Assembly (NCBI RefSeq): GCF_015711605.1
Contig: NZ_JABTEZ010000005.1
Coordinates: 682,001 to 746,000, forward strand
From: Planomonospora sp. ID67723
GTDB lineage: Bacteria; Actinomycetota; Actinomycetes; Streptosporangiales; Streptosporangiaceae
Length of the DNA stretch: 64,000 nucleotides
Direction of reading: 5' to 3'
In this document: in pieces, positions 40,307 through 63,999 of the stretch
How positions within the stretch are numbered: position 1 is the stretch's first letter
Layout: each line of letters begins with the position of its first letter
Program-made: the position numbers and the translations under genes
Notes under the pieces: model-generated
What the model was told of the DNA's origin: nothing
Databases searched by the model: none
What the model saw: the letters and a program-made list of their open reading frames with translations, nothing else

Positions 40307-41383
40307 TCAGTCCACGGAGAGCTGCGTGACCAGCGGATCGTCCCTGAGCGCGGTCACGGTCGCATCCGGGTCGAGCACCTCCGCGGCGAGGTGGGCTCCG
40401 GGAGGAACACGACCGGCGAGCACGGTCCGTGCGGTCAACGCCATCACCACGCCGCTCAGAGCATAGGAGTCCACAGCGGTCAGCAGTACTCGGGTGGGGC
40501 CCGCAGGCGCGCCGCGGTGGGGACGGGCGGTGAACAGCATCACGTAGAACGCCCCGAAGCCGGCGTTGTCCAGAACGGAGGCGCGCACCACCTCCGCGGC
40601 GTACGGCCGGAGCGTCTCGATCGGGGCGGCGTGGACGTCGGGTACGGCCGCCCACGCCGCGGAGAGCGCGTGGGGGATCCGGTCGGAGACGAACACGTTG
40701 TAGGAACGCACCTCGTCCGCGCCGCACTCCGCGGCCAGGGTCTGCGCCTCGGTGGTGAGGTACGGCCAGGCGTGCACGGGCTCGGGGAAGCCCGGCAACC
40801 GCACCCCGTGGAGCGGCGCCAGCGGCGTGACGGCTCCCTCCCGCCAGGCGGCCATCGGCACGCCGAACCTCGGCCCGCGGGTGAGAAGCGCATCCACCGC
40901 GGAGAGCGGGGTGAACACCGCCGCGCCCCCGACGTACACATCCAGCCTGCGCGGTGGGCGTCCCTTGGCGAGCAACCGGGGCAGCAGGCCGGACAGTCCC
41001 GGCATGACCCCGGCGGAGAACACCGCGGTCCGCTCCCGAGGTACGGCTCCGCCCGAGAGCGCGTCCTTGGCGGCGAGCTCACCGCCGATGTCGACGTAGT
41101 CGGCACCGGCCGCGAACGCGGCCCGGGCCACGGTGTCCAGCACCCGGTAGGTGGGGCCCGCGCAGTTCACCACGATCCTGCAGCCCGCACAGAACCGGGC
41201 GAGCTCATCCGGGTCGGTCAGGTCCACCCGTACGACCTCGGCGGGTGCGGGCAACGTCTCCGCGACTTCCGCGGCTCGCGCCGCGTCGCGTCCGCCGAGC
41301 CGCAGCCCGCCCGCTCCGAGGGCGGCGAGCCGCCCGGCGGCCGTGCGGCCCACGGCCCCGGTCGCCCCCAGCACTCCGATCAT
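40307..41383 (-). CDS. Saccharopine-dehydrogenase-like NAD(P)-binding reductase of the metallophore cluster
   Basis: A 358-residue oxidoreductase with an N-terminal Rossmann motif (GVLGATGAVGRTAAGRLAALG, residues about 3-23) and the saccharopine-dehydrogenase NADP-domain features VNCAGP and GADYVDIGGE. It occupies the place of the thiazoline reductases of yersiniabactin- and pyochelin-type clusters, although those belong to a different oxidoreductase family, so a reduction of a thiazoline or imine, or an opine-like step, is an inference. ATG 41383 overlaps the stop of the PCP-Cy-PCP gene, so it is the last gene of the leftward Zur-controlled operon. The frame runs back to 42322, but those residues lie in the shadow of the NRPS gene. 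Confidence 0.75.
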   Translation of the reverse strand: MIGVLGATGAVGRTAAGRLAALGAGGLRLGGRDAARAAEVAETLPAPAEVVRVDLTDPDELARFCAGCRIVVNCAGPTYRVLDTVARAAFAAGADYVDIGGELAAKDALSGGAVPRERTAVFSAGVMPGLSGLLPRLLAKGRPPRRLDVYVGGAAVFTPLSAVDALLTRGPRFGVPMAAWREGAVTPLAPLHGVRLPGFPEPVHAWPYLTTEAQTLAAECGADEVRSYNVFVSDRIPHALSAAWAAVPDVHAAPIETLRPYAAEVVRASVLDNAGFGAFYVMLFTARPHRGAPAGPTRVLLTAVDSYALSGVVMALTARTVLAGRVPPGAHLAAEVLDPDATVTALRDDPLVTQLSVD

Positions 41384-43344
41384 CGCGAGCCGTCCGTTCT
41401 GGAGCGGACGGCGTGGGCCACTCCGGCCACCGTCGGGTCGGACAGGAACTCGCGCACGGGAACGGCCGCGCCGATCTCCTTGGCCAGCCGGACCACTGCC
41501 CGCACCGCGAGCAGGGAGTCGCCGCCGAGCGCGAAGAAGTCCGCGCCGCGGTCCAGCACGGGTATCTCCAGCAGCTCTTCGAACACCTCCGCGACGGTCT
41601 GCTCCACATCGTCCGCCAGCGGGCCGCTGTACTGCCCGGACGGGGCCTCGGGCAGCCGGTCCAGCCGCAACCCGCCCTCCCCCGCGGGGAGATCGGCGGC
41701 GTGCGGCAGCTGCGGCGCCAGGTCCCAGCCCGAGCCGTCGGCGAGGCTGTCCACCAGGGCGACGAACTCGGTGAACGCCGCGGTCACGGCCGCCTCCTCG
41801 AACAGCTCGTCGACGAGCGAGAACACGGCGACCGCCTCGTCGCCGATCTCGAAGCAGCGCACTTCCAGCGCCACCTGCGGCGTGCGCAGCTGGTGGAAGT
41901 AGTCGGATGCGATGATCCGGCCGAGCGGCCCCGCCTCCTCCGGCGGACGGCCGCCCATGGCCGCGTCCACCCCCAGCACACTCTGGAAGACCACCGGGCC
42001 CACCGGCCGCCACGTGCCGCGGCGCCGGGCCAGTTCGCGGCCCACCTCGACGCCGGTGATCAGGTTGTGCGCGGCGTGTTCGCCCGAGGTCCGCTGAGCG
42101 GTGGCGGCCAGCTCGGCGAAGGTGGCGCCGGGGGCGAGTTCGACCGGGAGCAGCATCGTCGAGGCGAAGGCGCCGACCACCCGGTGGAGGTCGGGGTGCA
42201 GGGGGAGCCGGTTGAGCTGGAGGGAGTTGAGCAGCATCCGGCGGTGCCCCGACCAGCGGGCGAGCACGATCGCGAAGGCGGTGAGCATGGCCGTCGAGGG
42301 AGTCACCTCCCGGCGTGCGCACTCCTGGCGCAGCGCGGCCCAGCGTTCGGCGGTCCAGCGGTGCTCGCGATTGCCCATGGTGACCGGACGCACGTCCTTC
42401 GGATCGGCCACGAGCGGCAGGGCGGGCGGGAGCGGAAGGTCATCCAGCCGGGAGAACCACCAGTCGCGGTCGGCCTGCCACGCCTCGGTCTTCGGCAGCT
42501 CCTCCAGGGCCGTGACGTAGTCGCCGAAGTGCACCTCGAGAGGCGGCAGCACGGCGTTCCAGTCCGCCGCGTAGGTGAGCAGGTCCCTGCTCAGCACGCC
42601 CGACGACCAGCCGTCGAAGGTCAGCAGGCTGAACCCGAGGTGGAGCCGTCCCTCACCCCCGGGCAGCAGGGTCAGCCGGACGTCGAGGCCGGGCCCGCCG
42701 GTGGGGTCGGGACCGCGGGTGCTCATCTCCTGCCGGACCTCGGCCAGCGCGTCCGCCGCCTCTTCGGCAGTCGATCCGCGCAGGTCGTAGACCTTCAGCC
42801 GGGGAGCCCCGCCGGCCAGCACCCGTTGCCGGCCCTCGGGGGTGACCCTGGCCCGCAGGGTCGGCTGGTGGACGGCGAGCCGCTCGATCGCGTCCGAGAG
42901 CGCGTCGGCGGCCTCGTCGCCGTCCACGCCGCTGAGCGCGTAGTCCAGGTAGTAGTGGGCCGAATCGTAGGACAGCTCCCAGCCGTCCTGCTGGCCGACG
43001 AAGTAGCCCTGCTGCAGGGGGAGCAGGGGGAACTCGGCGTGCGGGTCGGGGCGCCTGGCCACCTGCAGGGGCAGCGTGCGGGCCATGGGCTCGCCGGAGG
43101 CGCGTCGCCCTACCAGGTCGGCCAGCTGGTTCAGGGTGATCTCCACCCGCACGTCCGACAACGCGAGCACCACATTGAGCCTTCGGCGCACCAGCGCCGA
43201 CATCCGCACCGTCAGCACGGAGTCGCCGCCCAGCCGCAGGAAGCTGACGTCGGCGGGTACGTCGCCGGGGGCGAGGTCGAGCAGTTCCGCCCAGATGGAG
43301 GCGAGCTCCTCCACCAGGTTCGCGTTCTGCGGGGCATCGGTCAT
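41380..43344 (-). CDS. NRPS protein PCP-Cy-PCP without adenylation domain
   Basis: A 654-residue protein with three domains: a carrier domain (phosphopantetheine Ser42 in RLGGDSVLTVRM), a heterocyclisation domain (about residues 85-545) and a second carrier (Ser in FFALGGDSLLAVRA, about residue 608). No adenylation domain is present, so its amino acids must be loaded in trans, most simply by the cysteine A domain of the synthetase at 44611. In the Cy domain the DxxxxDxxS catalytic stretch reads GFSLLTFDGWS: the first Asp is Ser. Domain order equals the PCP1-Cy2-PCP2 part of yersiniabactin HMWP2. ATG 43344 overlaps the methyltransferase stop; the longer frame to 43464 adds residues antisense to non-conserved sequence. 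Confidence 0.85.
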   Translation of the reverse strand: MTDAPQNANLVEELASIWAELLDLAPGDVPADVSFLRLGGDSVLTVRMSALVRRRLNVVLALSDVRVEITLNQLADLVGRRASGEPMARTLPLQVARRPDPHAEFPLLPLQQGYFVGQQDGWELSYDSAHYYLDYALSGVDGDEAADALSDAIERLAVHQPTLRARVTPEGRQRVLAGGAPRLKVYDLRGSTAEEAADALAEVRQEMSTRGPDPTGGPGLDVRLTLLPGGEGRLHLGFSLLTFDGWSSGVLSRDLLTYAADWNAVLPPLEVHFGDYVTALEELPKTEAWQADRDWWFSRLDDLPLPPALPLVADPKDVRPVTMGNREHRWTAERWAALRQECARREVTPSTAMLTAFAIVLARWSGHRRMLLNSLQLNRLPLHPDLHRVVGAFASTMLLPVELAPGATFAELAATAQRTSGEHAAHNLITGVEVGRELARRRGTWRPVGPVVFQSVLGVDAAMGGRPPEEAGPLGRIIASDYFHQLRTPQVALEVRCFEIGDEAVAVFSLVDELFEEAAVTAAFTEFVALVDSLADGSGWDLAPQLPHAADLPAGEGGLRLDRLPEAPSGQYSGPLADDVEQTVAEVFEELLEIPVLDRGADFFALGGDSLLAVRAVVRLAKEIGAAVPVREFLSDPTVAGVAHAVRSRTDGSR

Positions 43345-44483
43345 GAGGACTCCATCGGTGCGGTGGCGACGAACAGACGCTGCGAGAGGGCGGTGAGCGG
43401 GTGGCCGTCGGGAGGCAGGTCCACCTCGACGCGCAGGCCGGCGTGCGCGAGCCGGCTCCGCCATTCCTCGCGGGTCAGGTAGGTGCGGGTGGTGCCGGCC
43501 CGCTCGTCCTGCCGCGGCGGCGGGCCGGTGCCGTCGCGTGGGGACAGGGCGGGCGGCATCGTGGTGAGGGACTGCGCGTGCTCCTTGACGGTTTCGATGA
43601 GCAGCACCCGTCCGCCCGGCGCGAGCAGCCCGGCCACCTGGTCGAGCAGGCGGCCGACGTGGGGTGCGTTGTGCGCCATGGTCGCGGCCACCACCAGGTC
43701 CAGCCCGCCCGGCGGCCCCGGCAGCTCTTCGGTGACGTCCAGCAGCTCGTAGCGGAGGAAGGGGGCGTCGAACCGGCGCCGGGCGACGTCGATGAAGAAC
43801 GGTGACAGGTCGGTGAAGACGTAGGACTCGACCGGCCGTCCGGCGAGCGCGGGCAGCAGGTCCGCCGTGGTCGCGCCGATCCCGGCGCCCAGTTCCAGTA
43901 TCCGCAGCGGTCGCGGTGGATGTCCGGCCAGATCGCGGACCACCTCGGCGGCGGCGAGGTTGAGGTAGCGGCTGATCACGTTGTCCCGGTAGACGGCCTC
44001 GGCCGTGGCCGGTTCCCCGTCGGGGTAGAGCAGGGCCTGCACCCCCACCTCGTCGCGCAGGAGCTGGGGTATCAGGCGCAGCGAGCGGAGCATCAGGTCG
44101 GCCAGTTCGCGGGGATAGCCGAGAGCGGTCCCGGCGCCCTCCATGCGGGCACGGGCGGCGGCCAGTTCGGCTCTGGAAGGGCGGTGCAGGCTGTGGTAGC
44201 GGCCTTCCCCGTCCCGGCGGGCCAGTCCCGCTCCGTGCAGTGCGGCGAGCCAGTGGGCGACGATCCAGCGGTGTCGCGCCGCGGCCCCCAGGTCATCGGC
44301 GACCAGGTCGGGGGAGTGCGTGCCGGGCGCGCCCAGCCGGGTGGTGCGGTGGAGCTCGGCCGCGATCCCGAGCAGGACGAGCCGATCGAGGTCCTCCACC
44401 GCCGCGGCGGCGGAGGAGACGTCGAATCCGGCGATCGCGGCCATGCCTGCTCCGTGGGCGCGGGCGGACAGGTCTGCTGGCAT
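43341..44483 (-). CDS. Stand-alone methyltransferase of the metallophore cluster
   Basis: A 380-residue SAM methyltransferase. Residues about 20-185 form the helical lid common to assembly-line methyltransferases (WLAALHGAGLARRDGEGRYHS...DEVGVQALLYPDG). The SAM motif is ILELGAGIGATTADLL (about residue 193), followed by SYVFTDLSPFFID and a terminal SRLAHAGLRVEVDLP block. It is clearly paralogous to the second domain of the methyltransferase at 59849, which has the same lid and FTDxSxFF sequence. In yersiniabactin-type systems equivalent domains lie inside the modules and C-methylate the polyketide or thiazoline carbon; here the domain is free. AAGGG precedes ATG 44483, and a Zur box (44528-44542) lies 45 bases upstream. 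It opens the leftward operon. Confidence 0.83.
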   Translation of the reverse strand: MPADLSARAHGAGMAAIAGFDVSSAAAAVEDLDRLVLLGIAAELHRTTRLGAPGTHSPDLVADDLGAAARHRWIVAHWLAALHGAGLARRDGEGRYHSLHRPSRAELAAARARMEGAGTALGYPRELADLMLRSLRLIPQLLRDEVGVQALLYPDGEPATAEAVYRDNVISRYLNLAAAEVVRDLAGHPPRPLRILELGAGIGATTADLLPALAGRPVESYVFTDLSPFFIDVARRRFDAPFLRYELLDVTEELPGPPGGLDLVVAATMAHNAPHVGRLLDQVAGLLAPGGRVLLIETVKEHAQSLTTMPPALSPRDGTGPPPRQDERAGTTRTYLTREEWRSRLAHAGLRVEVDLPPDGHPLTALSQRLFVATAPMESS

Positions 44484-44527
44484 GAGGACCCTTCTGGGGA
44501 CGGCGGTCGGGCACACGCTAGACAAAA

Positions 44528-44542
44528 CGGTAATCATTTTCA
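44528..44542 (-). promoter_or_regulatory. Zur box for the leftward metallophore operon
   Basis: On the minus strand the site reads TGAAAATGATTACCG; its first eleven bases equal the classical Zur consensus TGAAAATGATT. It lies 45 bases upstream of the methyltransferase start and about 33 bases from the second box, which serves the rightward operon. A weaker second half suggests tighter or looser control than the other boxes; the strength cannot be judged from sequence. Confidence 0.72.
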
Positions 44543-44575
44543 ACATCTGGACATGTCCGTAAACTGATGTAAGTA

Positions 44576-44590
44576 TGAAAACCGTTTTCG
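44576..44590 (+). promoter_or_regulatory. Zur box for the rightward NRPS-PKS-importer operon
   Basis: TGAAAACCGTTTTCG is a palindrome with one mismatch and matches the boxes at 28908 and 30382. A -35-like TGGACA (44548-44553) and -10-like AAGTAT (44571-44576) precede it with a 17-base spacer, so Zur would cover the transcription start. The box contains an ATG (44575) that is part of the operator and probably not the NRPS start. Confidence 0.88.
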
Positions 44591-44595
44591 TTATC

Positions 44596-44603
44596 GGGAA
44601 GGA
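44596..44603 (+). promoter_or_regulatory. Ribosome-binding site that decides the NRPS start
   Basis: GGGAAGGA ends seven bases before the TTG at 44611, an ideal spacing. The ATG at 44575 has no ribosome-binding site and lies inside the Zur box near the predicted transcription start. TTG 44611 is therefore the better start. Confidence 0.65.
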
Positions 44604-44610
44604 CTCCGCG

Positions 44611-47600
44611 TTGGGTGAAAGCCAGCTCGCATCTGTCGACGACGTGCTCGCCTGCCTGGCTGACGTGCTGGAACGCAGGGCAGAGGAGATCGATCCGGAC
44701 ACCGGCCTCACAGAGCTCGGCCTGGAGTCCTTCACCGCCGTACGGCTGCGCCGCCGCCTGCGCGAGGACGTCGGCCTGGACCTCCCGCTGACCGCGTTCC
44801 TCGGCTCGGCCACCGCGCGCACCGTCGCAGCCGGAACGGTGCCGGACGCCGACGCGTTCCCCCTCACCCCCATCCAGGCCGCCTACCTGGTGGGCCGCGA
44901 CCCCGCCTTCCCGCTCGGCGGCGTCGCCACCTTCTACTACCAGGAGTTCGACCGCACCCCTGAGGGCGACCCCGAGGCCGACCTGGCCGGGCTCGCCGCC
45001 GCCTGGAACCGGTTGGTGCGCCGGCACCCGATGCTCCGCATGGTCGTCGGGCCCGACGCCCGGCAGTCCGTGCTCGAGGAGGTGCCCGACTACGCCATCG
45101 CCACCACCGACCTGCGGCTCGCCGCCCCGGACGCGGTGGACGAGGCACTGCGCGCACTGCGGGCCGAATGTTCGCACCAGTTGCGGCCCACCGACCGGTG
45201 GCCGCTGTTCGACCTGCGGGCCGCGCTGCTGCCCGACGGGCGCACCCGGCTGTTCATCGGTGTCGACGTGCTCGCGTTGGACCTGATGAGCTGGATGCGG
45301 CTGATGCGCGAGTGGGGCGCCTTCGTGGCCGATCCCGGCCTGGAACCGCCCGCCCCGCCGCTGACCTTCGCCGATCTCGTCCGGCGCCGCCTCGACGACC
45401 CGGCCGAGCGGCGGCGTCGTGAGGCGGCCGCCGCGTACTGGGAGCGCCGCGCCCCCGCGCTGCCCGACGGGCCCACGCTGCCCTGGACCCGCGGACCGGC
45501 CGAGCTGGGCGTGCCGCACTTCACCAGGCACGGAGCCGAACTCGACGCCGAGCAGTGGGCCCAGCTGCGCAAGCAGGCCGCCTCGCACGGCCTGAGCCCC
45601 ACCGGCCTGCTGCTGGCCGCGTTCAGCCTGGTGCTCCAGCGATGGGGCGGACACGACTCCTTCTGCCTGAACACCACGCTCTTCGACCGCGACGACTTCG
45701 CGATCGGCGACGAGACCCCGGGTCTCGACACGGTCATCGGTGACTTCACCAGCACCGTGCTGGTGGAGATCCCGGCCGCCGACCCCGGCGGCTGGTACGG
45801 CTTCGCGGGCTATGCCGCCGCGGTCAACCGCCGGTTCTGGGAGGACATGGATCACCGCGCCGTCTCCGGAATGGAGGCGCTGCGCGCGGCCACGGAGTCG
45901 GGGCAGCGCGCACGGACCACCGACCCCGCCACCGGCCTGCCCGTCCCCGTCCACCCCGTCGTCTTCACCAGCGGGATCGGGCTCGCGGGCGAAGGCGAGG
46001 CTCCCGCGGCCTGGCTCGGCACGGAGGTGTTCGGCGTCTCCCAGACCCCGCAGGTCCTGCTCGACCACATCGTCCACGACGAGGACGGCAGGCTGCGGAT
46101 CGCCTGGGACGCCGTGGACGGGGCGCTCCCGCACGGCTTCGTGGACGGGATGCTCGCCGCCCATGTCCGCCTGCTGCGACTGCTCGCCGCCGACCCCGCC
46201 GCGTGGAGCGATCCCACCCTGGGCTGGGACCCGTCCTTCCACCGGGACGAGAGCCTGCCGGGCGGCGCGTTCGGCGGGGCGGGCCCGCTGCTGGACGACC
46301 CGCTGCGGGAGGCCGCCGTACGGGAACCGTCCGCTCCCGCGCTGCTCGACGCGACGGCCCGGGTGGACGCGGGCTCGCTCGCCGAGCGCGCCGCACGCAC
46401 GGGACGCGCGCTCGCCGGAGCCGGTCTCGGCCCCGGCGACCTGGTGGCCGTGCTGGCGGACAAGGGGATCGCGCAGGTCACCGCACTTCTCGGCGTGCTC
46501 GCCGGCGGCGCCGGATACGTGCCCGTGGAGCCGTCCTGGCCGCGGGCGCGCGTCACCGCCCTGTGCGAGCAGGCGGGAGTACGGCACGCGCTCGCCGCTC
46601 CCGGCACCGACGTCTCCGTCTGGCCGGAGGAGGTGACCGTGCACCGGCTGGACGCCGACGGAACCCTTGCGCTCCCCGAGGAGGCGGAGCCGCGCCGCCC
46701 CGCGCCGGACGACCTCGCCTATGTGATCTTCACATCGGGATCCACCGGGAGGCCCAAAGGCGTCGCGATCGAGCATCGGGCCGCCCGCACCACCCTCGAC
46801 GACCTCGCCCGGCGCTTCCCGCTGCACTCCGGCGACCGGGTGCTGGCGCTGTCGGCCTTCAGTTTCGACCTGTCGGTGTACGACATCTTCTCGCTGCTCG
46901 GCGAGGGCGGTGCCGTCGTCCTGCCCGACGTCCGCCGCCAGCGCGACCCCGGGCACTGGCTGGAGCTGATGGCCCGGCACGGGGTCACGGTGTGGAACAC
47001 CGCGCCGGCGCTGCTGGAGATGCTGGTCGAATACGCCGAACTGGAGCCGGAGACGGTCCGGCGCGCGCTGTCGAGCCTGCGCCTGGTCTTCCTGTCCGCC
47101 GACTGGATCCCGGTCACCCTGCCCGACCGTCTGCGCGTCCTGGCTCCCCAGGCCCAGGTGGTGAGCCTCGGCGGCGCGACAGAGGCGTCCATCTGGTCGA
47201 TCTGCCACCCCGTCGGCGAGGTGGACCCGTCCTGGCCGAGCATCCCGTACGGCCGGGCGCTGCGCGGCCAGTCCTTCCAGATCCTCGACCCGCAGGGACG
47301 GCCGTGCCCGGTCGGCGTCCCCGGCGAGCTGCACATCGGCGGTGACGGCCTGGCCCGCGGGTATGTGGGAGACCCCGCGCAGACCGCGGAGCGGTTCATC
47401 ACGCACCCCGTGCTCGGGCGCAGGCTCTACCGGACCGGAGACCTCGGCCGGTGGCGGTACGACGGGACGATCGAGTTCCTCGGCCGGCTGGACCGCCAGG
47501 TCAAGATCCGCGGCCACCGCATCGAGCTCGGCGAGATCGAATCCACGCTGGACCGGCTGCCGTCCGTACGCCAGGCCGTGGCCCGCGCGGTGCCCGGTCC

Positions 47601-56722: not shown

Positions 56723-57674
56723 CGGGGCGAGGTTCGGCGGCGTCCCCCGGGTGATCGTGCGCGCGGGGGCGCTGCTGTCCTGCGCCTCCACAGTGATCTT
56801 CCTGATCACCGAAGCGCTGCCGGGAGACGCCGCGGTCGTGCGGAGCGGCGGGCGGGCCACGGCCGAGCAACTGGACCGGCTGCGCGCCGAGGCCGGGCTG
56901 GACCGGCCGCTCGCCGAACGCTACGTGAGCTGGCTCGCCGGGACGCTGTCCGGAGATCCGGGGCATTCGCTCCTCACGGGACGGCCGGTCGCCGAGCTGA
57001 TCGGCCAGCGGATGCCGGTGACCCTCACGCTGGCCGCGGCCGCGCTGGCACTGGCCGTACCGCTCATGGCGATCCTCGCCTGGGCGGCGGTGGGAGGGCC
57101 GCGACCGCTGCGACCGGTGATCACCGGGCTCGTCGTGGGCGGGGCGGCGCTTCCCCAGGTCGCCCTGGCGGCGTTGCTGGTGGCGCTGTTGTCCGCGGCG
57201 TGGAAACTCGTGCCGCCCGTCTCGCTGCTTCCCGCCGGCGAGCCGCCCTGGAGCCGTCCCGCGTTGCTGGTGCTGCCGGTGCTGACCCTCGCCCTGCCCG
57301 CCGCCGCGTACGGCGCCGCCCTGCTGCGCGGTGCGGTGGCCGACGCCGTCTCCCGGCCCTTCGTGCGTGACGCCGGGCTTCGCGGGGTGTCCGCGGCGGC
57401 CGTCGCGCTGCGTTACGTGTTCCCCGTCGTCGCACCCGCCGCCGTCCGGCTGCTCGCCGTGGTCGCGGGCGGCCTGGTCGCCGGGACGACGGTGGTGGAG
57501 ACGCTCTTCGGCCTGGCGGGGTTGGGCGAGCTGCTGGTCTCCTCGGTCGGGGGCCGGGACCTCCCCGTGGTGCAGGCCGTCACGCTGCTCGCGGCGGCCG
57601 TGGTCGCGGCCGGCCTGATCACCGCCGACGCCGTCGCCCTGGCCGTGGACCCCCGGGGCGGAGCGGCCCGGTGA
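56712..57674 (+). CDS. Metallophore-importer permease (DppB/NikB type)
   Basis: A 320-residue permease with six predicted transmembrane segments. The early ITEALPGDAAV motif matches the DppB/NikB family and the TTVVETLFGLAGLGELLVSSVGGRDLPVVQA block near the C-terminus is diagnostic. The EAA-like loop reads RPFVRDAGLRGVSAAAVALRYVFPVV. TTG 56712 lies within the upstream stop region (stop 56720-56722), with AGGTGG just before it, so translation is coupled; a later start would cut into the first helix. It pairs with the next permease. Confidence 0.82.
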   Translation: MAADGARFGGVPRVIVRAGALLSCASTVIFLITEALPGDAAVVRSGGRATAEQLDRLRAEAGLDRPLAERYVSWLAGTLSGDPGHSLLTGRPVAELIGQRMPVTLTLAAAALALAVPLMAILAWAAVGGPRPLRPVITGLVVGGAALPQVALAALLVALLSAAWKLVPPVSLLPAGEPPWSRPALLVLPVLTLALPAAAYGAALLRGAVADAVSRPFVRDAGLRGVSAAAVALRYVFPVVAPAAVRLLAVVAGGLVAGTTVVETLFGLAGLGELLVSSVGGRDLPVVQAVTLLAAAVVAAGLITADAVALAVDPRGGAAR

Positions 57675-58453
57675 GAGTCTCCCGCGTGCTCCTCGTCGCG
57701 GTCGCCGCCGGCGGCGTGCTGGCGCTCGCCCTGGGCGGGGAGGCGCTGGCCGGGCGGGAACCGACCCGCACCGTGGCCGCACCGTGGGCGGTCGCGGGAC
57801 CGGGCCTGCCGCTGGGCGCCGACGTCCTCGGACGCGACGTCCTGGCCAGGGTGCTGGCCGGCGGCCGCGACCTGACCCTGGGCGCGCTGGCCGCGGCCGG
57901 TGCGGCCTCCTCCTTGGGGGTGGCGGGCGGGTTGTGGGCGGGCTGGAGCCGGGGCCGTGCCGCCCGTGCGGCCAGGGCCCTGTCGGATCTGCTGCTGGTG
58001 CTCCCCCTGCTCCTGGTGGCGATGCTGGCGGTGGTGACGGTGCCCGGACCGGCGGCGGTCATCGCCGGAACGGTGTTCGGCGGCGCTCCGCTGACGCTGC
58101 GAGTGATGGCGGACGCCACGGCCCAGGCCAGGCACACCGGTTACGTCGAGGCCGCACTGTCCAGGGGCGAGCGCGGCCTGTCCGTCCTGTTCAGGGAGGT
58201 GCTCCCCGCGCACGCCGGACTGGTCGGCGCCGACCTCGGCCAGCGAATGGTGCTCGCCGTGCAGCTGTCGGCCGCGCTGAACGTCCTCGGCTTCGGTCCT
58301 CCTCCGCCGGAGGCGGACTGGGCGGCGATGCTCCGGGAGAATCTGCCGGGGATCGGACTCAACCCGGCCGCGGTGCTCGCCCCCGCCGCGGCATTGGCGC
58401 TGCTGGCCGGGAGCGTGGCGGGGCTCTCCCACATCCTGGCCGGGCGCTCATGA
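57671..58453 (+). CDS. Metallophore-importer permease (DppC/NikC type)
   Basis: A 260-residue permease, slightly short for the family (about 280-300). It keeps LGADVLGRDVLARVLAGGRDL (the DppC-type periplasmic motif, near residue 50), the EAA loop HTGYVEAALSRGERGLSVLFREVLPAHAG, and FGPPPPEADWAAMLREN. The missing residues are from the N-terminal cytoplasmic tail. GTG 57671 overlaps the preceding stop (GTGA). With its partner it forms the membrane channel of the importer. Confidence 0.82.
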   Translation: MRVSRVLLVAVAAGGVLALALGGEALAGREPTRTVAAPWAVAGPGLPLGADVLGRDVLARVLAGGRDLTLGALAAAGAASSLGVAGGLWAGWSRGRAARAARALSDLLLVLPLLLVAMLAVVTVPGPAAVIAGTVFGGAPLTLRVMADATAQARHTGYVEAALSRGERGLSVLFREVLPAHAGLVGADLGQRMVLAVQLSAALNVLGFGPPPPEADWAAMLRENLPGIGLNPAAVLAPAAALALLAGSVAGLSHILAGRS

Positions 58454-59841
58454 GCGGGCTGGCCGTGAGCGGGCTGACCGTCGTCGGCCCGGCGGGAGCC
58501 GCCGTGGTCCGGGATCTGGACCTGAGCACCGCGCGCGGCGAGGTGCTCGCCCTGGTGGGCCCCTCCGGCACGGGCAAGACGACGGTCCTGCGCGCCGTCC
58601 TGGACGTCCTCCCGCCCGGCCTGACCCGGATCGCGGGCCGCGTCGAGTGGGACGGCGCGGAACTGCGCGCCACGCGGCGCTGGCGTCGCCGGCACGTCGG
58701 CTACCTCGGGCAGGACCCCTCCTCCGCGCTGCATCCGCTGCTGACCGCGCGGGCCGCGGTGCTCGAACCCCTGCGGGTGCTCGGCCGGTCGCGCGCCGTA
58801 CGGCGGGCACGTGCCGAACAGGCGCTCGCCGACGTCGGGCTGGACCCGGAGGAACTGGGTGAGCGCCTGCCGCACCAGCTCTCCGGCGGGCAGGCGCAGC
58901 GGGTCGCGCTGGCCAGGGCCCTGGCCGCGGACCCCGATCTGCTCGTCCTCGACGAACCCACCAGTGCGCTCGACCCGGAGGCGCTGGAGACCGCCGTCGC
59001 CCTGATCCGCCGCCGCCGGGCGGAAGGCCGCTCGGCGACGCTGATCGTGTCGCATGACGGCTCCGTGGTGGCCGGGCTGGCTGACCGGGTCGTGCGGCTG
59101 GGCATGCCCCCGGCGGCGGCGCCCCCGGCCGCCCCTCGTGCCGCGACGCGCGCGCGTACGGCCGGCCCGGTGCTCGCGGTAGGCGGTCTCGGCCTCGACC
59201 GGCCGGACGGCGCGCCGCTGCTCGACGACGCCGGGCTCGCGATCGCCCCCGGCGAGTTCGTCGCCGTGCTCGGCCCATCCGGATGCGGCAAGAGCACGCT
59301 CCTCAGAGCTCTCGCGGGACTGCACCCGGTGCGGGCGGGTACCGCCACGCTGCTGGGCGAGCCGTTGCGCTGGCCGGTGCGGGGCAGAAGCGTTCCCGCC
59401 CTGCGCGCGCTGTCCCTGGTCGGACAGGACCCGCTGGCCGCGCTCAACCCGGCGCGCCCGGTCTCGGCCGCGCTGCGGCGCCCCCTGCGCCTCCTGCGGG
59501 GGCTCAGCCGGAGGGAGGCCGCCGCCGAGGCCGATCGCCTGCTCGCCGCCGTTGGGCTGCCCGCCGACACGGCACGCCGTTACCCCTCGGCCCTGTCGGG
59601 AGGGCAGCGGCAGCGGGTCGCACTGGCCAGAGCGCTGGCGGCCGGGCCGGCGCTGCTGCTGGCCGACGAGATCACCGCCGCGCTCGACGCCGGGACCGCC
59701 GAGCGGGTGCTCGACCTGCTCGACCTGCTGCGCCAGAAGGAGGAACTGGCCGTCCTGGCGGTCACCCACGACAAGACGGTGGCCGCCCGAGCCGACCGCG
59801 TCCTGCGGATCGGCCGCTCCATGACCGATGACCGGAGGTAG
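58450..59841 (+). CDS. Metallophore-importer ATPase, two fused ABC domains
   Basis: A 463-residue protein holding two ABC domains in one chain, replacing the usual separate DppD and DppF. Domain 1: Walker A GPSGTGKTTV (about residue 37), signature LSGGQAQRVALARAL, Walker B LLVLDEPTSALD, switch His VSHDGS. Domain 2: Walker A GPSGCGKSTL (about 275), signature LSGGQRQRVALARAL, Walker B LLLADEITAALD, switch His VTHDKT. All catalytic motifs are intact, with Ile in place of Pro after the Walker B Glu in domain 2. An Ala/Pro/Arg-rich linker (about residues 222-238) joins them. ATG 58450 overlaps the permease stop. It completes a five-component importer in four genes. Confidence 0.85.
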   Translation: MSGLAVSGLTVVGPAGAAVVRDLDLSTARGEVLALVGPSGTGKTTVLRAVLDVLPPGLTRIAGRVEWDGAELRATRRWRRRHVGYLGQDPSSALHPLLTARAAVLEPLRVLGRSRAVRRARAEQALADVGLDPEELGERLPHQLSGGQAQRVALARALAADPDLLVLDEPTSALDPEALETAVALIRRRRAEGRSATLIVSHDGSVVAGLADRVVRLGMPPAAAPPAAPRAATRARTAGPVLAVGGLGLDRPDGAPLLDDAGLAIAPGEFVAVLGPSGCGKSTLLRALAGLHPVRAGTATLLGEPLRWPVRGRSVPALRALSLVGQDPLAALNPARPVSAALRRPLRLLRGLSRREAAAEADRLLAAVGLPADTARRYPSALSGGQRQRVALARALAAGPALLLADEITAALDAGTAERVLDLLDLLRQKEELAVLAVTHDKTVAARADRVLRIGRSMTDDRR

Positions 59842-59848
59842 ACCGCCG

Positions 59849-62314
59849 ATGTCCAGGCGACAGATCGAACAGACGCTGCTCACTCACCCGTGGATCGCCC
59901 GCGCGGACCGCGACGGTGCCGTCGTCACGGCCTCTCCGGAGGCGCTGGCCGTCCGGCGCCGGTCCGCGGGGCCGCCCGTCCTGGGTGAGCTCGTGACCGA
60001 GCACCTGGAGCACTGGGGCGAGGTCTACGACTGGACCTACCGCTCCGGTCGCGACGCGCAGGATCCCTCGCTCGACCTGTCCGGCTGGCGGGCGACGGGC
60101 ACCGGCGAGCCGCTGCCCGTCGAGCACATGGCCGAGTGGGCGGACCGCACGGTGGAACTCGTCATGCGCACCCGCCCGCGCAACCTGCTGGAGCTCGGCT
60201 GCGGCACCGGCATGCTGCTGCACCGCCTGCACCCCCACCTCGACAGCTACGTCGGCACGGACATCGCCGAGCACGTGGTCGAGCGGTTGTCCGGGCTCGG
60301 CCTGCCGAAGGTGCGCGTGGTGCGCGCCGCCGCCCATGAGACGAGCGGTGCCGCGGTGCGCGCGGAGCTCGGCGAGCGGCCGGACTGCGTGCTGCTCAAC
60401 TCGGTGACCCAGTGCTTCCCGAGCGTGGCGTACCTGGCCGCCGTACTGCACGACGCGATCCGGCTCGTCACGCCGGGAGGGACGGTGATCGTCGGGGACA
60501 TCCGCCACTCGGGGCTGCTGGAGGCCCACTGCCGATGGCTGGAACGGACGGCGGACCCCGGCGTCACCGAGCCGGAGCTGACCGCGCGTGCGCAGCGGCG
60601 CGCGGCGTCCGACACCGAGCTGCTGCTCGACCCGTCCACCCTGGCCGCCGTCGCCGCGAGCTCGGGCAGGCGGGTCAGGATGAGCCTGCTCGCCAAGACC
60701 CTGACCGCCGACAGCGAGCTGACCCGCTACCGCTTCGACGCCGTGCTGCACGTCGAGCCTCCGGACGAGCCCGAGCCCGCCGTGCACGAGTGGGACGCGC
60801 TCGGCGCCGACCCGCAGGCCGGACTCGCCCGGCTCGCGGGCTCCCGGACCGGGCCTGTCCGCGTGCGCGGCATCCCGAACCGGCTGCTCGCCCCCGACGC
60901 CCGGCGCGCGACCACCGGGGCGGAACTGCGCGCCGCGCTCGCCGGTCACGACGCCGTGGTCCTGGTCGACCCGGACGATCCGGCCCTGCTCCAGGTCGCC
61001 GCGCCCGCCACGGCGGCCTCGACCCCGCTCGACGTCCTGGCCGGGCCGGGCCGCCCGCACGAGCCGATCGGTGCGTTCGCCAGGACCCGGCTGGTGGAGG
61101 TGGCCCGTCGTACCCTGCGCAAGGCGGGGCTACCGGTGCCCGCCGAGATGACCGCACTGCTGCCGAGCGGGCCCGGCCACGACGCCGTCACCCTCGCCCG
61201 GGACTGCGCGGCCGCCCACCGGGCCGGCATGCTCGCCCTCGGCGACACGGGCGCCCTGGACGAGATCCCCACCGCGGTCGCCCGGTTCGACGAGATCGCG
61301 CTGCACGCGCTGGGCCGCCTGATGGCCGGTGCCTTCGACGGCCCGCACACCGCCGAACAGGTCGTGGCGGGGCTGGGTACGGCACCGCGGCACGCGTGGA
61401 TCGTGCGCAGGTGGGTGCACGTCCTGCACGCCGAGGGACGGGCCGAGCGTGATCCGGACGGGCGCTACCGGTTCCCTCCGGTCGCGAAGCGCCCCGAGCT
61501 GGACCCGTCCGGCCCGCTCCTGGCGCAGGCGTGCGCCACACTGGGCTACCCCCCTCAGATGACGGCGTTCTTCCGCGAGGCGCTCACCCTGCTGCCGGAG
61601 CTGCTCGCGGACGAGATCCCGGCCCAGGCGCTGCTCTTCCCCGACGGAGACCTGCTCACGTCACTGAGCAAGGACCAGGACAACGTGAGCAACACCTACC
61701 TGAACGCCGCTTTCGGCTCAGTGATCCGGCAGGCCGCCGGGACCCGTACGGCACCGCTCCGTGTGATCGAGCTGGGCGCGGGGGCCGGAGGCAGCACCGC
61801 CGCGGCCCTGCGAGGGCTGGCCGGAGCGGATGCGGACTACCTGTTCACCGACGTGTCCCGGTTCTTCACCGCGGCCGCGAAGGACCGCTTCGGCGACACG
61901 CTCCGCTACGGACTCCTGGACATCAACGCCGATCTGGTGGACCAGGGCGCACCGCGCGGCGGCGCGGACGTGGTGCTGGCGGCGAACGTCCTGCACTGCG
62001 CCCGGAACGTCGGGCGGTCGCTGCGGTGGATCCGGGACCTGCTGGCCCCCGGCGGGCTGCTGATCGCGACCGAGGCGGTCAGGGAGCACTACCTGGTGCT
62101 GGCCACCATGCAGTTCCTGCTGTCCCCCCGGGAGGGGACGCCGGACCTCGGAAGCGGCGACCGGCGCGGCGGGACCGGCCGGGTGTTCCTCACGGGCAGG
62201 CAACTGCCCGCCGAGCTGGCGGAGGCGGGTCTGCGGGTGCTGCTCGAGCTGCCGGGCGCGGAATCGCCGCTGGCGGCGCCGGCACAGCATCTGTTCGTGG
62301 CCGCCGGCATCTGA
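59849..62314 (+). CDS. Two-domain trans-acting methyltransferase of the metallophore cluster
   Basis: An 821-residue protein with two SAM methyltransferase domains. The first has LLELGCGTGMLLHRL (about residue 114) and SYVGTDIAEHVVE, the pattern of methyltransferases embedded in NRPS adenylation domains. The second, preceded by its own helical lid (about residues 480-620), has VIELGAGAGGSTAA (about 638) and DYLFTDVSRFFTA, the pattern of PKS C-methyltransferases, and is paralogous to the protein at 43341. So the methyl groups normally added inside the modules appear to be added here by free domains. ATG 59849 was chosen because GGAGG lies ten bases before it; an upstream ATG at 59828 overlaps that site. 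Last gene of the rightward operon, ending at a strong convergent terminator. Confidence 0.82.
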   Translation: MSRRQIEQTLLTHPWIARADRDGAVVTASPEALAVRRRSAGPPVLGELVTEHLEHWGEVYDWTYRSGRDAQDPSLDLSGWRATGTGEPLPVEHMAEWADRTVELVMRTRPRNLLELGCGTGMLLHRLHPHLDSYVGTDIAEHVVERLSGLGLPKVRVVRAAAHETSGAAVRAELGERPDCVLLNSVTQCFPSVAYLAAVLHDAIRLVTPGGTVIVGDIRHSGLLEAHCRWLERTADPGVTEPELTARAQRRAASDTELLLDPSTLAAVAASSGRRVRMSLLAKTLTADSELTRYRFDAVLHVEPPDEPEPAVHEWDALGADPQAGLARLAGSRTGPVRVRGIPNRLLAPDARRATTGAELRAALAGHDAVVLVDPDDPALLQVAAPATAASTPLDVLAGPGRPHEPIGAFARTRLVEVARRTLRKAGLPVPAEMTALLPSGPGHDAVTLARDCAAAHRAGMLALGDTGALDEIPTAVARFDEIALHALGRLMAGAFDGPHTAEQVVAGLGTAPRHAWIVRRWVHVLHAEGRAERDPDGRYRFPPVAKRPELDPSGPLLAQACATLGYPPQMTAFFREALTLLPELLADEIPAQALLFPDGDLLTSLSKDQDNVSNTYLNAAFGSVIRQAAGTRTAPLRVIELGAGAGGSTAAALRGLAGADADYLFTDVSRFFTAAAKDRFGDTLRYGLLDINADLVDQGAPRGGADVVLAANVLHCARNVGRSLRWIRDLLAPGGLLIATEAVREHYLVLATMQFLLSPREGTPDLGSGDRRGGTGRVFLTGRQLPAELAEAGLRVLLELPGAESPLAAPAQHLFVAAGI

Positions 62315-62361: not shown

Positions 62362-62366
62362 GGAGC

Positions 62367-63296
62367 TCACGTCGCGGCGAGGTCGACCGGAAGGCCGGCC
62401 CGGAACAGCTCCTGCTCCAGCCAGACCGCCGCGCGCACGCCGTCGGCCGCACTCGGGCCCACCAGGGTCACCGGCTCCGGGACGGCCTCGAGGTGGGCGA
62501 GATCGCCGGCGGCGTAGACGCCCGCGACGGTGGTCTGGCCGTACTCGTTCACCTTGACGCACCCGTCGGGCAGCAGCTCGCACCCGAGCTGGACGGCCAG
62601 GTCGTTGTTCGGCCGGGTGGGTGCGCGGTGGTAGAGCGCCTGCCGCCGCAGGGTCGTGCCGTCGGCGAACCGTATCGTCAGCGCGTCCAGCTCGCCCTCG
62701 ATCGCGGTCACCGGGGTCTCGATCACCGGGATGTCCCTGGCCTTGAGCACCGCGGCCACCGGCTCGGGCACGCTGCTCGGCCCGTGGGTGCACAGGACCA
62801 CGTCGGTGCTGTACCGGTCGGCCACGTAGGCGGCGAGCATCGCGTCGAAGCCGTTGCCGATGACCGCCAGGACCTTGCCGTCGGTCTCGTACCCGTGGCA
62901 GAACGGGCAGTGGAAGACGCTTCCGCCCCAGCGCTCGGCCAGCCCCGGGATGTCGAACGGCACGTCCACCTGGCCGCTCGCCAGCAGGAGCCGGGCCGCC
63001 TCCGCGGTCCTGCCGTCCTCTACCGTGACGGTGAAGGCACCGGATCGCCCGCTCGCCGTACCCGCGCGCCCCCGCCAGATCTCCACCGTCGGGTAGGCGG
63101 CCAGCTCGGCACGGCCGTCCTCCAGCAGCCGGGCCGGTGAGCCGCCGTCGCGTCCCAGGTACATGTGCATCTCCGCGGCCGGCGCGTTGCGCGGACTGCC
63201 GGCGTCGACCACCAGGACCCTTCGCCGCTGCCGCCCGAGCACCAGGGCCGCGCTCAGCCCGGCGGGGCCGCCGCCGGCCACGATCACCTCATACAT
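62367..63296 (-). CDS. Thioredoxin-reductase-like FAD disulfide oxidoreductase
   Basis: A 309-residue flavoprotein of the thioredoxin-reductase fold. The FAD motif GGGPAGLSAALVL (residues about 8-20), the redox pair Cys130-Pro-Phe-Cys133 (FHCPFCHGYE), the NADPH-domain motif VIGNGFDAMLAAYVAD, and the terminal GVYAAGDLAH are intact. In the second dinucleotide motif Asn replaces the usual Gly (GNGFDAM). This branch includes enzymes that oxidise dithiols on natural products as well as true reductases. Next to a thiazoline cluster it may oxidise a dithiol or thiazoline, or handle a disulfide-bound intermediate. Its start overlaps the stop of the next methyltransferase by eight bases, so it is in that gene's operon. 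Confidence 0.78.
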   Translation of the reverse strand: MYEVIVAGGGPAGLSAALVLGRQRRRVLVVDAGSPRNAPAAEMHMYLGRDGGSPARLLEDGRAELAAYPTVEIWRGRAGTASGRSGAFTVTVEDGRTAEAARLLLASGQVDVPFDIPGLAERWGGSVFHCPFCHGYETDGKVLAVIGNGFDAMLAAYVADRYSTDVVLCTHGPSSVPEPVAAVLKARDIPVIETPVTAIEGELDALTIRFADGTTLRRQALYHRAPTRPNNDLAVQLGCELLPDGCVKVNEYGQTTVAGVYAAGDLAHLEAVPEPVTLVGPSAADGVRAAVWLEQELFRAGLPVDLAAT

Positions 63297-63999
63297 GCGG
63301 ATCCTCCTCGACGATGTACATTCCGAGCTCCTGCGGGCCGGTCGGCGTCAGTCCGAGGCCGTGCTCGGCGAGCTCCTCGCCGAGCGCCCGCTCGCCGAGC
63401 ACCCGCCAGGCGTAGGCCGTCTCGGTCTCGCGGACGAGCAGCTCCCCCTCGTAGACCCGGTAGGCCATGTGCCAGGTGACGCCGCCGGGGCCCGCGGGCT
63501 CCGCCCTGCCCCATCCCTCGTAGCGGTGCCGGCCCAGCCGTACGTCGGCGAACCGGGTCATCGGCACCTCGACCGGCTCGGCGGGGGGCTGCAGGTTCAG
63601 CACCGCACGGCCGCCGGACGCCAGCAGACGCCATAGCGCGCGTCGCTCTTCGGGGGTGAGGTGACCGATGACGTTCATCGCCACCACGCCGCCCAGCCCG
63701 GCCGGAAGGGTGGCCTGCAGCAGCCCCCCGGGCAGCACGGTCACCCGGTCTCGGAGCCCGGGACGTTCGTACACCCGGGCCGCCAGCACCGACCGGAGCG
63801 CGGGAGAGGGCTCGATGGCCACCACCTCGGCATCCGGCAGCGCTTCGGCGATCACCAGGGTGCCCAGCCCGCCGCCCGCGCCGAGATCGACGACCGGGCC
63901 GGGCCCGAACCCCTGCAGCGCCTCCGCGAGCGGGGGGCCCAAGTCGCCCCAGTGCGGAGCCATCATGACGTCGACGAACTCGGCCGACCGTTCGTACGG
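63289..63999 (-). CDS. Class I SAM-dependent methyltransferase (partial, 5' end off the window)
   Basis: A methyltransferase whose frame stays open to the right edge. The residues just before Met 63966 read PYERSAEFVDVM, a typical methyltransferase N-terminus, so the gene probably starts beyond 64000. The SAM motif is VVDLGAGGGLGTLVIA with VVAIEPSPAL closing the second strand, and NVIGHLTPEERRALWRLLASGGRAVLNLQ follows. It resembles small N- or O-methyltransferases of the Methyltransf_25 group. The overlap with the flavoenzyme gene places both in one leftward operon whose promoter is outside the window; whether it has a Zur box cannot be seen. Confidence 0.75.
   Translation of the reverse strand, partial: PYERSAEFVDVMMAPHWGDLGPPLAEALQGFGPGPVVDLGAGGGLGTLVIAEALPDAEVVAIEPSPALRSVLAARVYERPGLRDRVTVLPGGLLQATLPAGLGGVVAMNVIGHLTPEERRALWRLLASGGRAVLNLQPPAEPVEVPMTRFADVRLGRHRYEGWGRAEPAGPGGVTWHMAYRVYEGELLVRETETAYAWRVLGERALGEELAEHGLGLTPTGPQELGMYIVEEDPHV

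Follow-up and report, generated by a model that had tools for sequence, protein, structure and literature searches.

The 64,000-nt stretch of DNA analyzed here (the window) contains a split NRPS-PKS gene cluster that probably encodes a Zur-repressed zincophore pathway, in which a cysteine-derived, aryl-free chelator would be made and re-imported when zinc is short. The cluster and the zinc-related genes of the window consist of the following features:

28908..28922, no strand assigned, Zur box TGAAAACGGTTTTCA (two mismatches on +, three on -), preceding the COG0523 gene and an S18 gene
28942..30084, +, COG0523 (CobW-type) GTPase, a zinc-regulon marker (Pfam CobW_C, 4.4e-18)
30382..30396, no strand assigned, Zur box found by motif search, preceding the zinc-free ribosomal protein genes
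30434-31380, zinc-free ribosomal protein genes L33, L31, L28 and S14 (L28 and S14 by Pfam)
40307..41383, -, RED, saccharopine-dehydrogenase-like NAD(P)-binding reductase (Pfam PF03435, 6.4e-11)
41380..43344, -, LCy, PCP-Cy*-PCP (Pfam Condensation and two PP-binding stretches)
43341..44483, -, MT1, methyltransferase (Pfam)
44528..44542, -, leftward-operon Zur box with three mismatches, 44 bp upstream of the start of MT1
44576..44590, +, rightward-operon Zur box with three mismatches on -, overlapping the apparent ATG at 44575
44611..48708, +, R1, CP-Cy-A(Cys)-PCP NRPS (Pfam; A-domain signature DLYNFSLIWK)
48705..55169, +, R2, KS-AT-KR-ACP-Cy-TE (Pfam; TE motif GWSMG)
55181..56722, +, family 5 solute-binding lipoprotein (SBP), Opp/Nik-like (Pfam SBP_bac_5, 2e-67)
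56712..57674, +, ABC importer permease 1 (Pfam BPD_transp_1)
57671..58453, +, ABC importer permease 2 (Pfam BPD_transp_1)
58450..59841, +, fused double ATPase of the importer (Pfam ABC_tran, two stretches)
59828..62314, +, MT2, two methyltransferase domains (Pfam and solved-structure matches)
62367..63296, -, TRX, dithiol-oxidase-like flavoprotein with CPFC (solved-structure matches)
63289..64000 in the window, -, MT4, methyltransferase (Pfam); the ORF ends at 64008, just outside

A search of the window for TGAAAATGATTTTCA with up to three mismatches yielded five matches at the four places listed above, against 0.01 expected. The two divergent cluster boxes that the first-pass annotation had reported were recovered by this search; the boxes at 28908 and 30382 had not been linked to them in that annotation. 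The motif at the cluster promoter is a 15-bp palindrome of the 7-1-7 form, and each of the two cluster boxes has three mismatches to the full consensus. It resembles both the S. coelicolor Zur motif, tGaNNatSatNNtCa, and an older actinobacterial motif, taaTGaNAANNNTTNtCANta, as these are given in an excerpt of PMC5472717. The same motif precedes znuACB-zur in the window genome (G000), and the box at 28908-28922 lies 19 bp 5' of the COG0523 start at 28942. The translations of L33 and L31, which were assigned by eye, contain no Cys. Two other matches of the motif in this genome, that of a host described as a soil-type actinobacterium, adjoin non-zinc genes.

The cluster family comprises 33 named loci, and sites with at most one mismatch to the pattern, anywhere in the fetched locus, are present in 27 of these (36 sites), whereas 40 permuted palindromes gave 0.3 sites on average and at most five; six of the 33 have no site at this threshold. 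Pattern sites were detected in only two of the 21 group B loci, and zinc-regulon genes flank nine of the 33 named loci versus none of the 21. In eight named loci (L098-L103, L123 and L126), the sequence of the leftward box, TGAAAATGATTACCG, is identical, and the rightward box has a near-identical counterpart in the same position. Given that the same motif precedes znuACB-zur, the COG0523 gene and the zinc-free ribosomal protein genes, and that sites are common across the family, the earlier proposal of Zur control is well supported, and the cluster is very likely to be switched on by zinc shortage. The split architecture pointed out in the first-pass annotation is real and recurs across the family loci, and the importer genes recur with the biosynthetic operon. 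No match to RED was found in G058, the only genome of the same genus sampled.

The apparent ATG of R1 lies at a Zur box, and the likelier start is the in-frame TTG at 44611, after GGGAAGGA (44596-44603). The A-domain signature of R1, which we take to be a cysteine code, varies in position 3 across the family (Y in 11 of the 16 readable rows; H, W or F in five). Together with the Cy domains of R1 and R2, both of which have the catalytic Asp and Thr intact, this signature supports the assignment to cysteine-based thiazoline NRPS-PKS systems. The Pfam totals for the cluster are five carrier domains, three Cy domains, one A domain and one KS-AT-KR-ACP module, with no PCP found by Pfam between the Cy and TE domains of R2. 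The yersiniabactin-type content suggested previously is supported for the cysteine A domain and two Cy domains, but not for the aryl cap or for the third Cy domain, which has lost the heterocyclization residues. Pfam bears out the composition of the leftward operon (methyltransferase, PCP-Cy-PCP, reductase), in which RED is a probable thiazoline reductase and the LCy start at 43344 is our choice within the ORF 41380-43464. In the rightward operon, Cy-A-PCP, KS-AT-KR-ACP-Cy-TE, the importer and the methyltransferase are likewise recovered, but the first carrier cannot be designated an ArCP. The last protein of this operon, described before as a single methyltransferase, contains two such stretches: the N-terminal half of MT2 matches an NRPS chain (5wmm) and the C-terminal half matches the CurJ, DisA and AprA methyltransferases and is 42% identical to MT1.

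The importer genes are co-directional with R2 and start 11 bp downstream. The best solved-structure match of the SBP is AgaA (6hlx, 4.9e-27), with NikA at 4.2e-23. As for the Cnt/Nik type assigned to this importer earlier, the nikA model scores higher than CntA (107.4 of 393 bits against 46.2 of 800), but neither cut-off is passed. No exporter was recognized among the listed Pfam matches of the cluster proteins scanned.

The heterocyclization domain of LCy has both the catalytic Asp and the catalytic Thr replaced, by Glu and Gln in the window. Among the 32 covered named loci, the equivalent of BmdB D1226 is Glu in all, that of BmdB T1196 is Gln in 31 and Leu in one, and the condensation Asn (equivalent to PchE N368) is present in 31; three further motif positions are changed. 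In group B, Thr and Asp are present in 39 of 39 Cy domains. Asp and Thr are reported to be crucial for heterocyclization in the part of PMC8807600 from which the roles of D, T and N are taken. Because LCy lacks the heterocyclization residues and has the condensation residue, it most likely makes a plain amide, leaving the cysteine thiol free, and its Cy domain probably has been converted from a ring former to a plain condensation enzyme. Conceivably, LCy makes a cysteinyl-cysteine starter. A possible, if doubtful, alternative is that LCy still forms rings, with Glu acting as the base in place of Asp and the other changes tuning substrate choice: the substitutions are fixed, unlike random decay, with the TPQ motif retaining its Thr in 32 of the 32 covered loci, but two residues reported as crucial are replaced along with three motif positions. 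Also against the amide step, the condensation Asn is not retained in R2's own Cy domain (Thr in the window).

The gene set extends beyond the right edge drawn in the first-pass annotation, to the TRX-MT4 pair, which is convergent with the main rightward operon and is preceded, beyond the window, by a weaker box, TGATAACGGTTTCTA (64030-64044; two mismatches to the degenerate pattern). The best solved matches of TRX are 4ntd (7.4e-51), deposited as a thioredoxin reductase, which we take to be HlmI, 3fbs (7.5e-48), deposited as an oxidoreductase, DepH (4nte, 8.7e-48) and GliT (4ntc, 2.5e-30). The CxxC pair is invariant in 12 of 12 and present in 29 of 29 matched loci, among which named and unnamed ones overlap. 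The altered Cy domain next to a putative disulfide-making enzyme suggests free thiols instead of the usual phenol cap; the product possibly contains a thiol or disulfide. It is rather unlikely that TRX and MT4 are, instead, a neighboring Zur-controlled defense pair directed against foreign zinc-chelating dithiols and lying outside the biosynthesis. There is a precedent in DnoP of P. aeruginosa, a dithiol oxidase that zinc starvation induces and that confers protection from gliotoxin and similar dithiols according to an excerpt of PMC11317636, and the pair has its convergent orientation and its own weak box; such a role for TRX would count against the product-disulfide step. However, TRX is present in 11 of 11 further group A genomes (except G168, where the contig ends at RED) and in 18 of the 33 named loci (the DNA fetched for the other 15 does not include it), and in several loci, e.g. 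L107 and L111, shares the orientation of MT1-LCy-RED.

No salicylate synthase over the cut-off was detected in the window genome (best TIGR03494 match, 115 of 325 bits), and the best TIGR02275 match for a DHB/salicylate-AMP ligase was 194 of 724 bits among the 55 of 113 first-look candidates scored; accordingly, an aryl cap is unsupported. An ArCP assignment of the first carrier of R1 is not supported: its best solved-structure matches are weak and mostly to PKS ACPs, and no family-level aryl-loading enzyme was detected in the window genome among the candidates scored. Another acyl or aryl starter ligase in this genome is possible. An ordinary siderophore resembling yersiniabactin or coelibactin, with an aryl starter made by genes elsewhere, Zur control and a normal thiazoline set, appears unlikely. 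The domain totals do parallel the HMWP2/HMWP1 set, RED shares its Pfam domain with SrbE (according to part of PMC10127202), and an aryl-AMP ligase match above 550 bits occurs in eight of the 13 genomes that carry the cluster, exceeding the cut-off in two; in G109 (L064), the ligase and the cluster's COG0523 gene are ∼5.5 kb apart. Against this stand the scores in the window genome, the absence of aryl-AMP ligase matches above 250 bits in G006, G042, G016 and G097, the lost heterocyclization residues of LCy, and the far lower frequency of sites in group B loci, at least one of which (L093) includes an aryl-AMP ligase scoring 628 bits. Least plausible is a dithiol antibiotic or metal-starving toxin made in zinc shortage in the manner of holomycin or gliotoxin, with TRX for self-protection and an incidental importer: TRX closely resembles enzymes of the DepH and GliT type and is paired with a methyltransferase, and gliotoxin disturbs zinc homeostasis in P. 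aeruginosa (as described in part of PMC11317636), but no acyl-CoA dehydrogenase or decarboxylase family is among the listed Pfam matches of the 14 cluster-region translations, and the recurrent location of importer genes inside the biosynthetic operon fits uptake better than a toxin.

In the preferred zincophore pathway, zinc-bound Zur on the boxes at 44528-44590, and on the third box before MT4-TRX, would keep both operons shut. Upon derepression, the single cysteine A domain, in R1, would charge the PCP of that protein and, acting in trans, those of LCy. LCy would join cysteine by the plain amide, one thiazoline would be formed by each of R1 and R2, and RED would reduce one of these to a thiazolidine. 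Methylation of nitrogen and carbon would fall to MT2 and MT1; R2 would extend the chain by a single ketoreduced malonate unit and release it without a salicylate or dihydroxybenzoate cap. The HlmI/DepH-like flavoenzyme would close the product disulfide or keep the product protected, and the Opp/Nik-type importer would return the metal complex to the cell. The sequence itself shows the boxes, the order and domains of the genes, the residue changes and their conservation, and the lack of family-level aryl genes in this genome among the candidates scored; Zur binding, the order of assembly, the free thiol, the disulfide, zinc as the metal and export are what we infer from the genes. A more general, tentative extension is that there are actinobacterial metallophores without an aryl cap, in which a condensation-only Cy domain frees cysteine thiols, zinc is bound by thiolates in place of the phenolate, and an HlmI-type oxidase under Zur control enables storage or export of the disulfide.

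Among NRPS clusters under Zur control, coelibactin has long been an example, but its product had not been isolated according to a 2012 paper and a 2023 one (excerpt of PMC10127202). The present family would be a second, distinct Zur-linked NRPS lineage, the compact operons of which make zinc-capture chemistry testable; the fixed change in LCy and the adjacent dithiol-oxidase-like protein lead to the prediction that zinc is bound by a redox-switchable thiol ligand. Mining of genomes by chelator genes is not expected to flag this family because, according to part of a 2026 paper (PMC12971057), detection of thiazol(id)ine heterocycles was not possible without many false positives and telling zincophores apart will likely need regulatory elements.

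Like yersiniabactin HMWP2/HMWP1, the cluster combines three Cy-type domains, a ketoreducing PKS module, methyltransferases, a probable thiazoline reductase and a TE, with one cysteine A domain that, as we infer here, serves several carriers. In yersiniabactin-type systems, each of the three Cy domains typically has the catalytic Asp and Thr, and a PCP stands between the final Cy domain and the TE. Here, in contrast, LCy carries Glu and Gln, with Asp and Thr retained only in R1 and R2, R2 ends in ACP-Cy-TE with no PCP found before the TE, the proteins are split with separate methyltransferases, Zur boxes and an Opp/Nik-type importer are present, and the window genome has no family-level salicylate synthase or aryl ligase (for the ligase, among the 55 of 113 candidates scored). 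The yersiniabactin route is outlined in a review, which in part also notes that yersiniabactin serves zinc uptake.

The cluster shares Zur control with coelibactin of S. coelicolor (according to part of PMC5472717), and thiazoline chemistry and a PF03435 reductase with coelibactin and sorangibactin (PF03435 is named for SrbE in an excerpt of PMC10127202). The same excerpt gives the salicylate start as shown for sorangibactin and predicted for coelibactin, and describes a P450 of the CYP105N1/SrbH kind and a TE with an active-site Cys in both clusters; sorangibactin is stated, in the source as excerpted, to respond to iron. The TE here, in contrast, has the Ser-type motif GWSMG, there is a PKS module, and no P450 family is among the listed Pfam matches of the 14 cluster-region translations.

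TRX matches HlmI, DepH and GliT dithiol oxidases best among solved structures and has their CxxC pair; unlike these, it is encoded next to an NRPS-PKS cluster that is zinc-regulated and includes an importer, and no dithiolopyrrolone-type dehydrogenase was recognized among the listed Pfam matches of the proteins scanned. The importer has the family 5 SBP, two permeases and ATPases of the Cnt/Nik opine-type zincophore importers, but the SBP is far under the CntA and NikA cut-offs, and no opine biosynthesis gene was recognized among the listed Pfam matches of the proteins scanned; pseudopaline, too, is under Zur control according to part of a review. Judging by its genes, the cluster departs from yersiniabactin and coelibactin in two points, the unsupported aryl cap and the altered LCy.

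The cluster consists of two divergent operons, and the domain content that the first-pass annotation had read in its genes is borne out by Pfam. The leftward operon encodes a methyltransferase (MT1), a PCP-Cy-PCP protein with an altered Cy domain (LCy) and a PF03435 reductase (RED), and the rightward one R1 (CP-Cy-A-PCP), R2 (KS-AT-KR-ACP-Cy-TE), an importer with a substrate-binding protein (SBP), and a second methyltransferase (MT2), with genes for a dithiol-oxidase-like flavoprotein (TRX) and a further methyltransferase (MT4) following in convergent orientation. Provided that LCy starts at 43344, both leftward junctions overlap by 4 bases (43341-43344 and 41380-41383), and the rightward genes from R1 to MT2 are also closely packed, with an overlap at 48705-48708 and the SBP gene 11 bp after R2. 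The apparent ATG of R1 is overlapped by the Zur box at 44576-44590, so that the matching first codons of the relatives would reflect the operator, and the TTG at 44611 is probably the likelier start. A simple scan of 44400-44700 gave no promoters or terminators.

Among 200 genomes from the family to which the window belongs, 37 have a RED match, at 42 places, and none in the sole same-genus genome sampled, G058 (E <= 1e-20 in both cases). In group A, comprising 13 places including the window, the flanks of the other 12 of which were compared, LCy, MT1, RED, R1, R2, the importer, MT2, TRX and MT4 occur together as far as the contig or stretch reaches. Of the 29 remaining places, 21 stretches (L076-L096) were compared as group B; RED is accompanied there by a methyltransferase and tandem Cy-A modules, and these stretches of 17-20 kb match LCy only by carrier domains and R2 only by Cy or carrier parts. 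Group B loci often include an SBP, resemble coelibactin and sorangibactin in content and are nearly devoid of Zur sites.

When 84,980 species genomes were searched with an alignment of 12 LCy proteins, 33 loci were obtained (hereafter, the named loci), in Planomonospora, Nonomuraea, Actinomadura, Actinocorallia, Thermomonospora, Nocardiopsis, Actinorugispora, Kineosporia, Rhodococcus, Saccharopolyspora, Saccharothrix, Amycolatopsis, Pseudonocardia, Micromonospora and Streptomyces. Eight of the 11 window-family relatives in the alignment appear to be among these loci, so that the distinct clusters number about 37 including the window. LCy was found in one of 396 genomes of a phylum sample, the window's own (E <= 1e-150; three candidates scored per genome among the matches listed), and the cluster is therefore rare in such a sample. 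At >100 bits, the named loci contain MT1 in at least 30 cases, RED in at least 27, MT2 in at least 26, R2 and TRX in at least 18 each, R1 in at least 13, MT4 in at least 12 and the SBP in at least 10, all lower bounds given flanks of at most 10 kb and many early contig ends, with MT1 and MT2 cross-matching each other. Type II thioesterase-like ORFs, recognized by eye from an HGGGG motif, separate TRX from the reductase or from MT4 in L106 (13251-13988), L108 (13716-14486), L111 (13848-14603) and L119 (13819-14589); among the window cluster proteins scanned, there is no separate gene of this type. In L129 of Streptomyces sp. 8K308, pieces of a methyltransferase, LCy and MT4 are found in broken segments (4203-6858), either a decaying cluster or a sequence error.

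The pattern TGAAAATGATTTTCA, with up to three mismatches, has five matches at four places in the window, compared with 0.01 expected from shuffles, and the two divergent boxes of the first-pass annotation, 44528-44542 and 44576-44590, were both recovered among them. Another match, TGAAAACGGTTTTCA, lies 19 bp upstream of a COG0523 gene, after which comes an S18 gene (named by eye); a further box precedes the L33, L31, L28 and S14 genes, of which the L33 and L31 translations lack Cys. Elsewhere in the genome, TGAAAACGGTTGTCA is located upstream of genes for ZnuA, an ABC ATPase, an ABC-3 permease and a FUR-family protein, that is, znuACB-zur. All these gene types are among the listed Zur targets of S. 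coelicolor according to a review (PMC6103462), and the published motif of that organism is tGaNNatSatNNtCa (PMC5472717). Genome-wide (8.34 Mb, nine contigs), there are 41 matches, 18 forward and 23 reverse, compared with three and three for the backwards control; adjacent genes were scanned at the window, znu and two more places. The matches include C4:872298, flanked by genes for a peptidase C26 and a flavohaemoglobin-like protein, and C2:1513116, flanked by those for an ABC ATPase and a LacI-type regulator, both non-zinc as annotated, as well as C3:518407 (stretch L026). Other features on the RED side of the cluster are as follows.

20133-22873: genes for another family-5 SBP and for a permease, with no box nearby at the thresholds used
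28908-31380: two boxes together with COG0523, S18 and the L33-L31-L28-S14 variants, forming a compact zinc-starvation island 9-11 kb away from where the NRPS cluster begins on this side
31380-32447: a methyltransferase gene that immediately follows S14 and may share its Zur operon; its sole match in the named and other group A loci searched is in L129 (51%)
33666-36005: a 779-aa ABC-ATPase protein, weakly matched to UvrA DNA-binding
38963-40273: a FAD-binding_3/halogenase-like flavoprotein, convergent with RED; distant homologs (33-44%, one short piece excepted) precede MT1-LCy-RED in several Actinomadura-type loci

Across the family, TGANAAYSRTTNTCA with at most one mismatch, counted anywhere in a locus and not just in promoters, gives 36 sites in 27 of the 33 named loci (632,515 bases), compared with a mean of 0.3 and a maximum of 5 over all 33 loci for 40 palindromes with permuted half-sites, although the pattern was picked after viewing the boxes of the window and its relatives, so that the test is not blind and, the loci being related, these are not independent trials. 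Group B contains two such sites in two of the 21 stretches (413,563 bases). At up to two mismatches, the numbers are 80 sites in 32 named loci and seven in six group B stretches, the permuted control applying to the one-mismatch level only. The box at 44576 has one mismatch to TGANAAYSRTTNTCA and that at 44528 has two, and both occupy the same places in eight named loci (L098-L103, L123 and L126). Genes of the zinc regulon (COG0523, Zur, ZnuA and zinc-free ribosomal proteins) are present in the flanks of nine named loci and none of the 21 group B stretches; among the nine, L112, L120 and L121 rest on 25-35% matches alone, and L119 on matches of 72% to S18 and of 41% for a Zur-like gene. Taken at the sequence level, Zur control of the cluster is a firm prediction, and zinc is the likely metal.

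The LCy profile aligns with the Cy domains of BmdB, EpoB, PchE and HMWP2. An Asp (PchE D480, BmdB D1226 and EpoB D449 by alignment) and a Thr are reported to be crucial for heterocyclization, and an Asn to position condensation (PMC8807600). T1196 of BmdB, the T of VFTS, was located by counting 30 residues back from D1226 in the profile alignment. In the 32 named loci covered of 33, LCy invariably has Glu at D1226, Leu at PchE S472 and Ala at the D of GDFT, with Gln (31) or Leu (1) at T1196 and Ser (29) or Asn (3) at the first D of DxxxxD, and it keeps the Thr of TPQ throughout, whereas the condensation Asn is kept in 31. The Asp and Thr are kept in the Cy domains of R1 (12 of 12) and R2 (4 of 4) in the named loci covered, and in all 39 group B Cy domains. 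This pattern is one of fixed replacement rather than decay, and we infer that LCy works without ring formation. That LCy still forms a ring is doubtful given these replacements; the retained Asn is by itself not decisive because this position varies in the R2 Cy (Thr in the window). The dithiolopyrrolone Cy-A-PCP enzyme, which acts on two cysteines (PMC10134970), is a precedent in chemistry, the comparison being one apart from homology.

The remaining assignments concern the dithiol oxidase and METHYLTRANSFERASES. The signature of the R1 A domain is DLYNFSLIWK, which we take to be a cysteine code. The best solved match of TRX is 4ntd (7.4e-51), deposited as a thioredoxin reductase and presumably HlmI, followed by 3fbs, DepH and GliT. 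The N-terminal half of MT2 has a sole match among solved structures, the NRPS chain 5wmm, in what we assume to be its embedded N-methyltransferase, and the C-terminal half, 42% identical to MT1, matches CurJ, DisA, AprA and other methyltransferases. RED alone had no match among solved structures, where a thiazolinyl imine reductase was sought, and an alignment of 16 RED proteins gave weak Rossmann-type matches only. MT4 is preceded, 21 bp upstream of its start, by a box with two mismatches. TRX and MT4 could be a defense pair like P. aeruginosa DnoP, which is induced by zinc starvation (PMC11317636), but with TRX recurring in group A this seems rather unlikely.

An aryl-started siderophore is improbable; the first-pass annotation had likened the domain content to that of yersiniabactin-type thiazoline metallophores. 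Aryl genes were sought in 13 genomes, 12 in which the cluster is seen and G168, with RED alone left at a contig end. Salicylate synthase exceeds the TIGR03494 cut-off in two (G067 and G197) and not in the window genome, G000; the dihydroxybenzoate/salicylate-AMP ligase model TIGR02275 has above-cut-off matches in two and matches of >550 bits in eight, whereas matches of >250 bits are absent from five (G000, G006, G042, G016 and G097), the best in G000 scoring 194 bits (55 of 113 first-look candidates scored). In G109, a strong aryl-AMP ligase match lies near the cluster in L064, ~5.5 kb from its COG0523 gene, and the product there may be aryl-capped; in G121, a 628-bit ligase is in a group B stretch (L093), ~7 kb from the RED of that stretch, and the group A cluster (L062/L100) bears the Zur sites. 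The first carrier of R1 has weak matches to PKS ACPs. An aryl-type product is unsupported for the window organism and was set aside for it on the 13-genome search, with neither enzyme seen at the family level among the G000 candidates scored; a salicylate or dihydroxybenzoate starter is unlikely in this organism, barring unfamiliar making and loading enzymes. The acyl-AMP ligase at 9508-11001, a candidate starter ligase, was set aside because amidohydrolase, SDR and alpha/beta hydrolase genes lie close to it and the cluster is 29 kb away. A dithiol toxin, with which the TRX matches would be compatible, is very improbable.

No described cluster of this kind was recognized by titles and abstract openings among the open-licence papers listed. 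That Zur-regulated NRPS clusters are established, as the first-pass annotation held for coelibactin, agrees with a review that names coelibactin, ethylenediamine-disuccinate and pseudopaline as Zur-controlled metallophore clusters, and yersiniabactin serves zinc as well (review, PMC10136090). Sorangibactin SrbE has a PF03435 domain, as does RED, and a related protein belongs to the coelibactin pathway, its function unknown at the time (PMC10127202); the comparison with coelibactin rests on published descriptions. Zur control of metallophore clusters is already known, and the present cluster is a variant with an altered Cy domain and an unsupported aryl cap. The observation of the first-pass annotation is confirmed, and its interpretation is partly supported.
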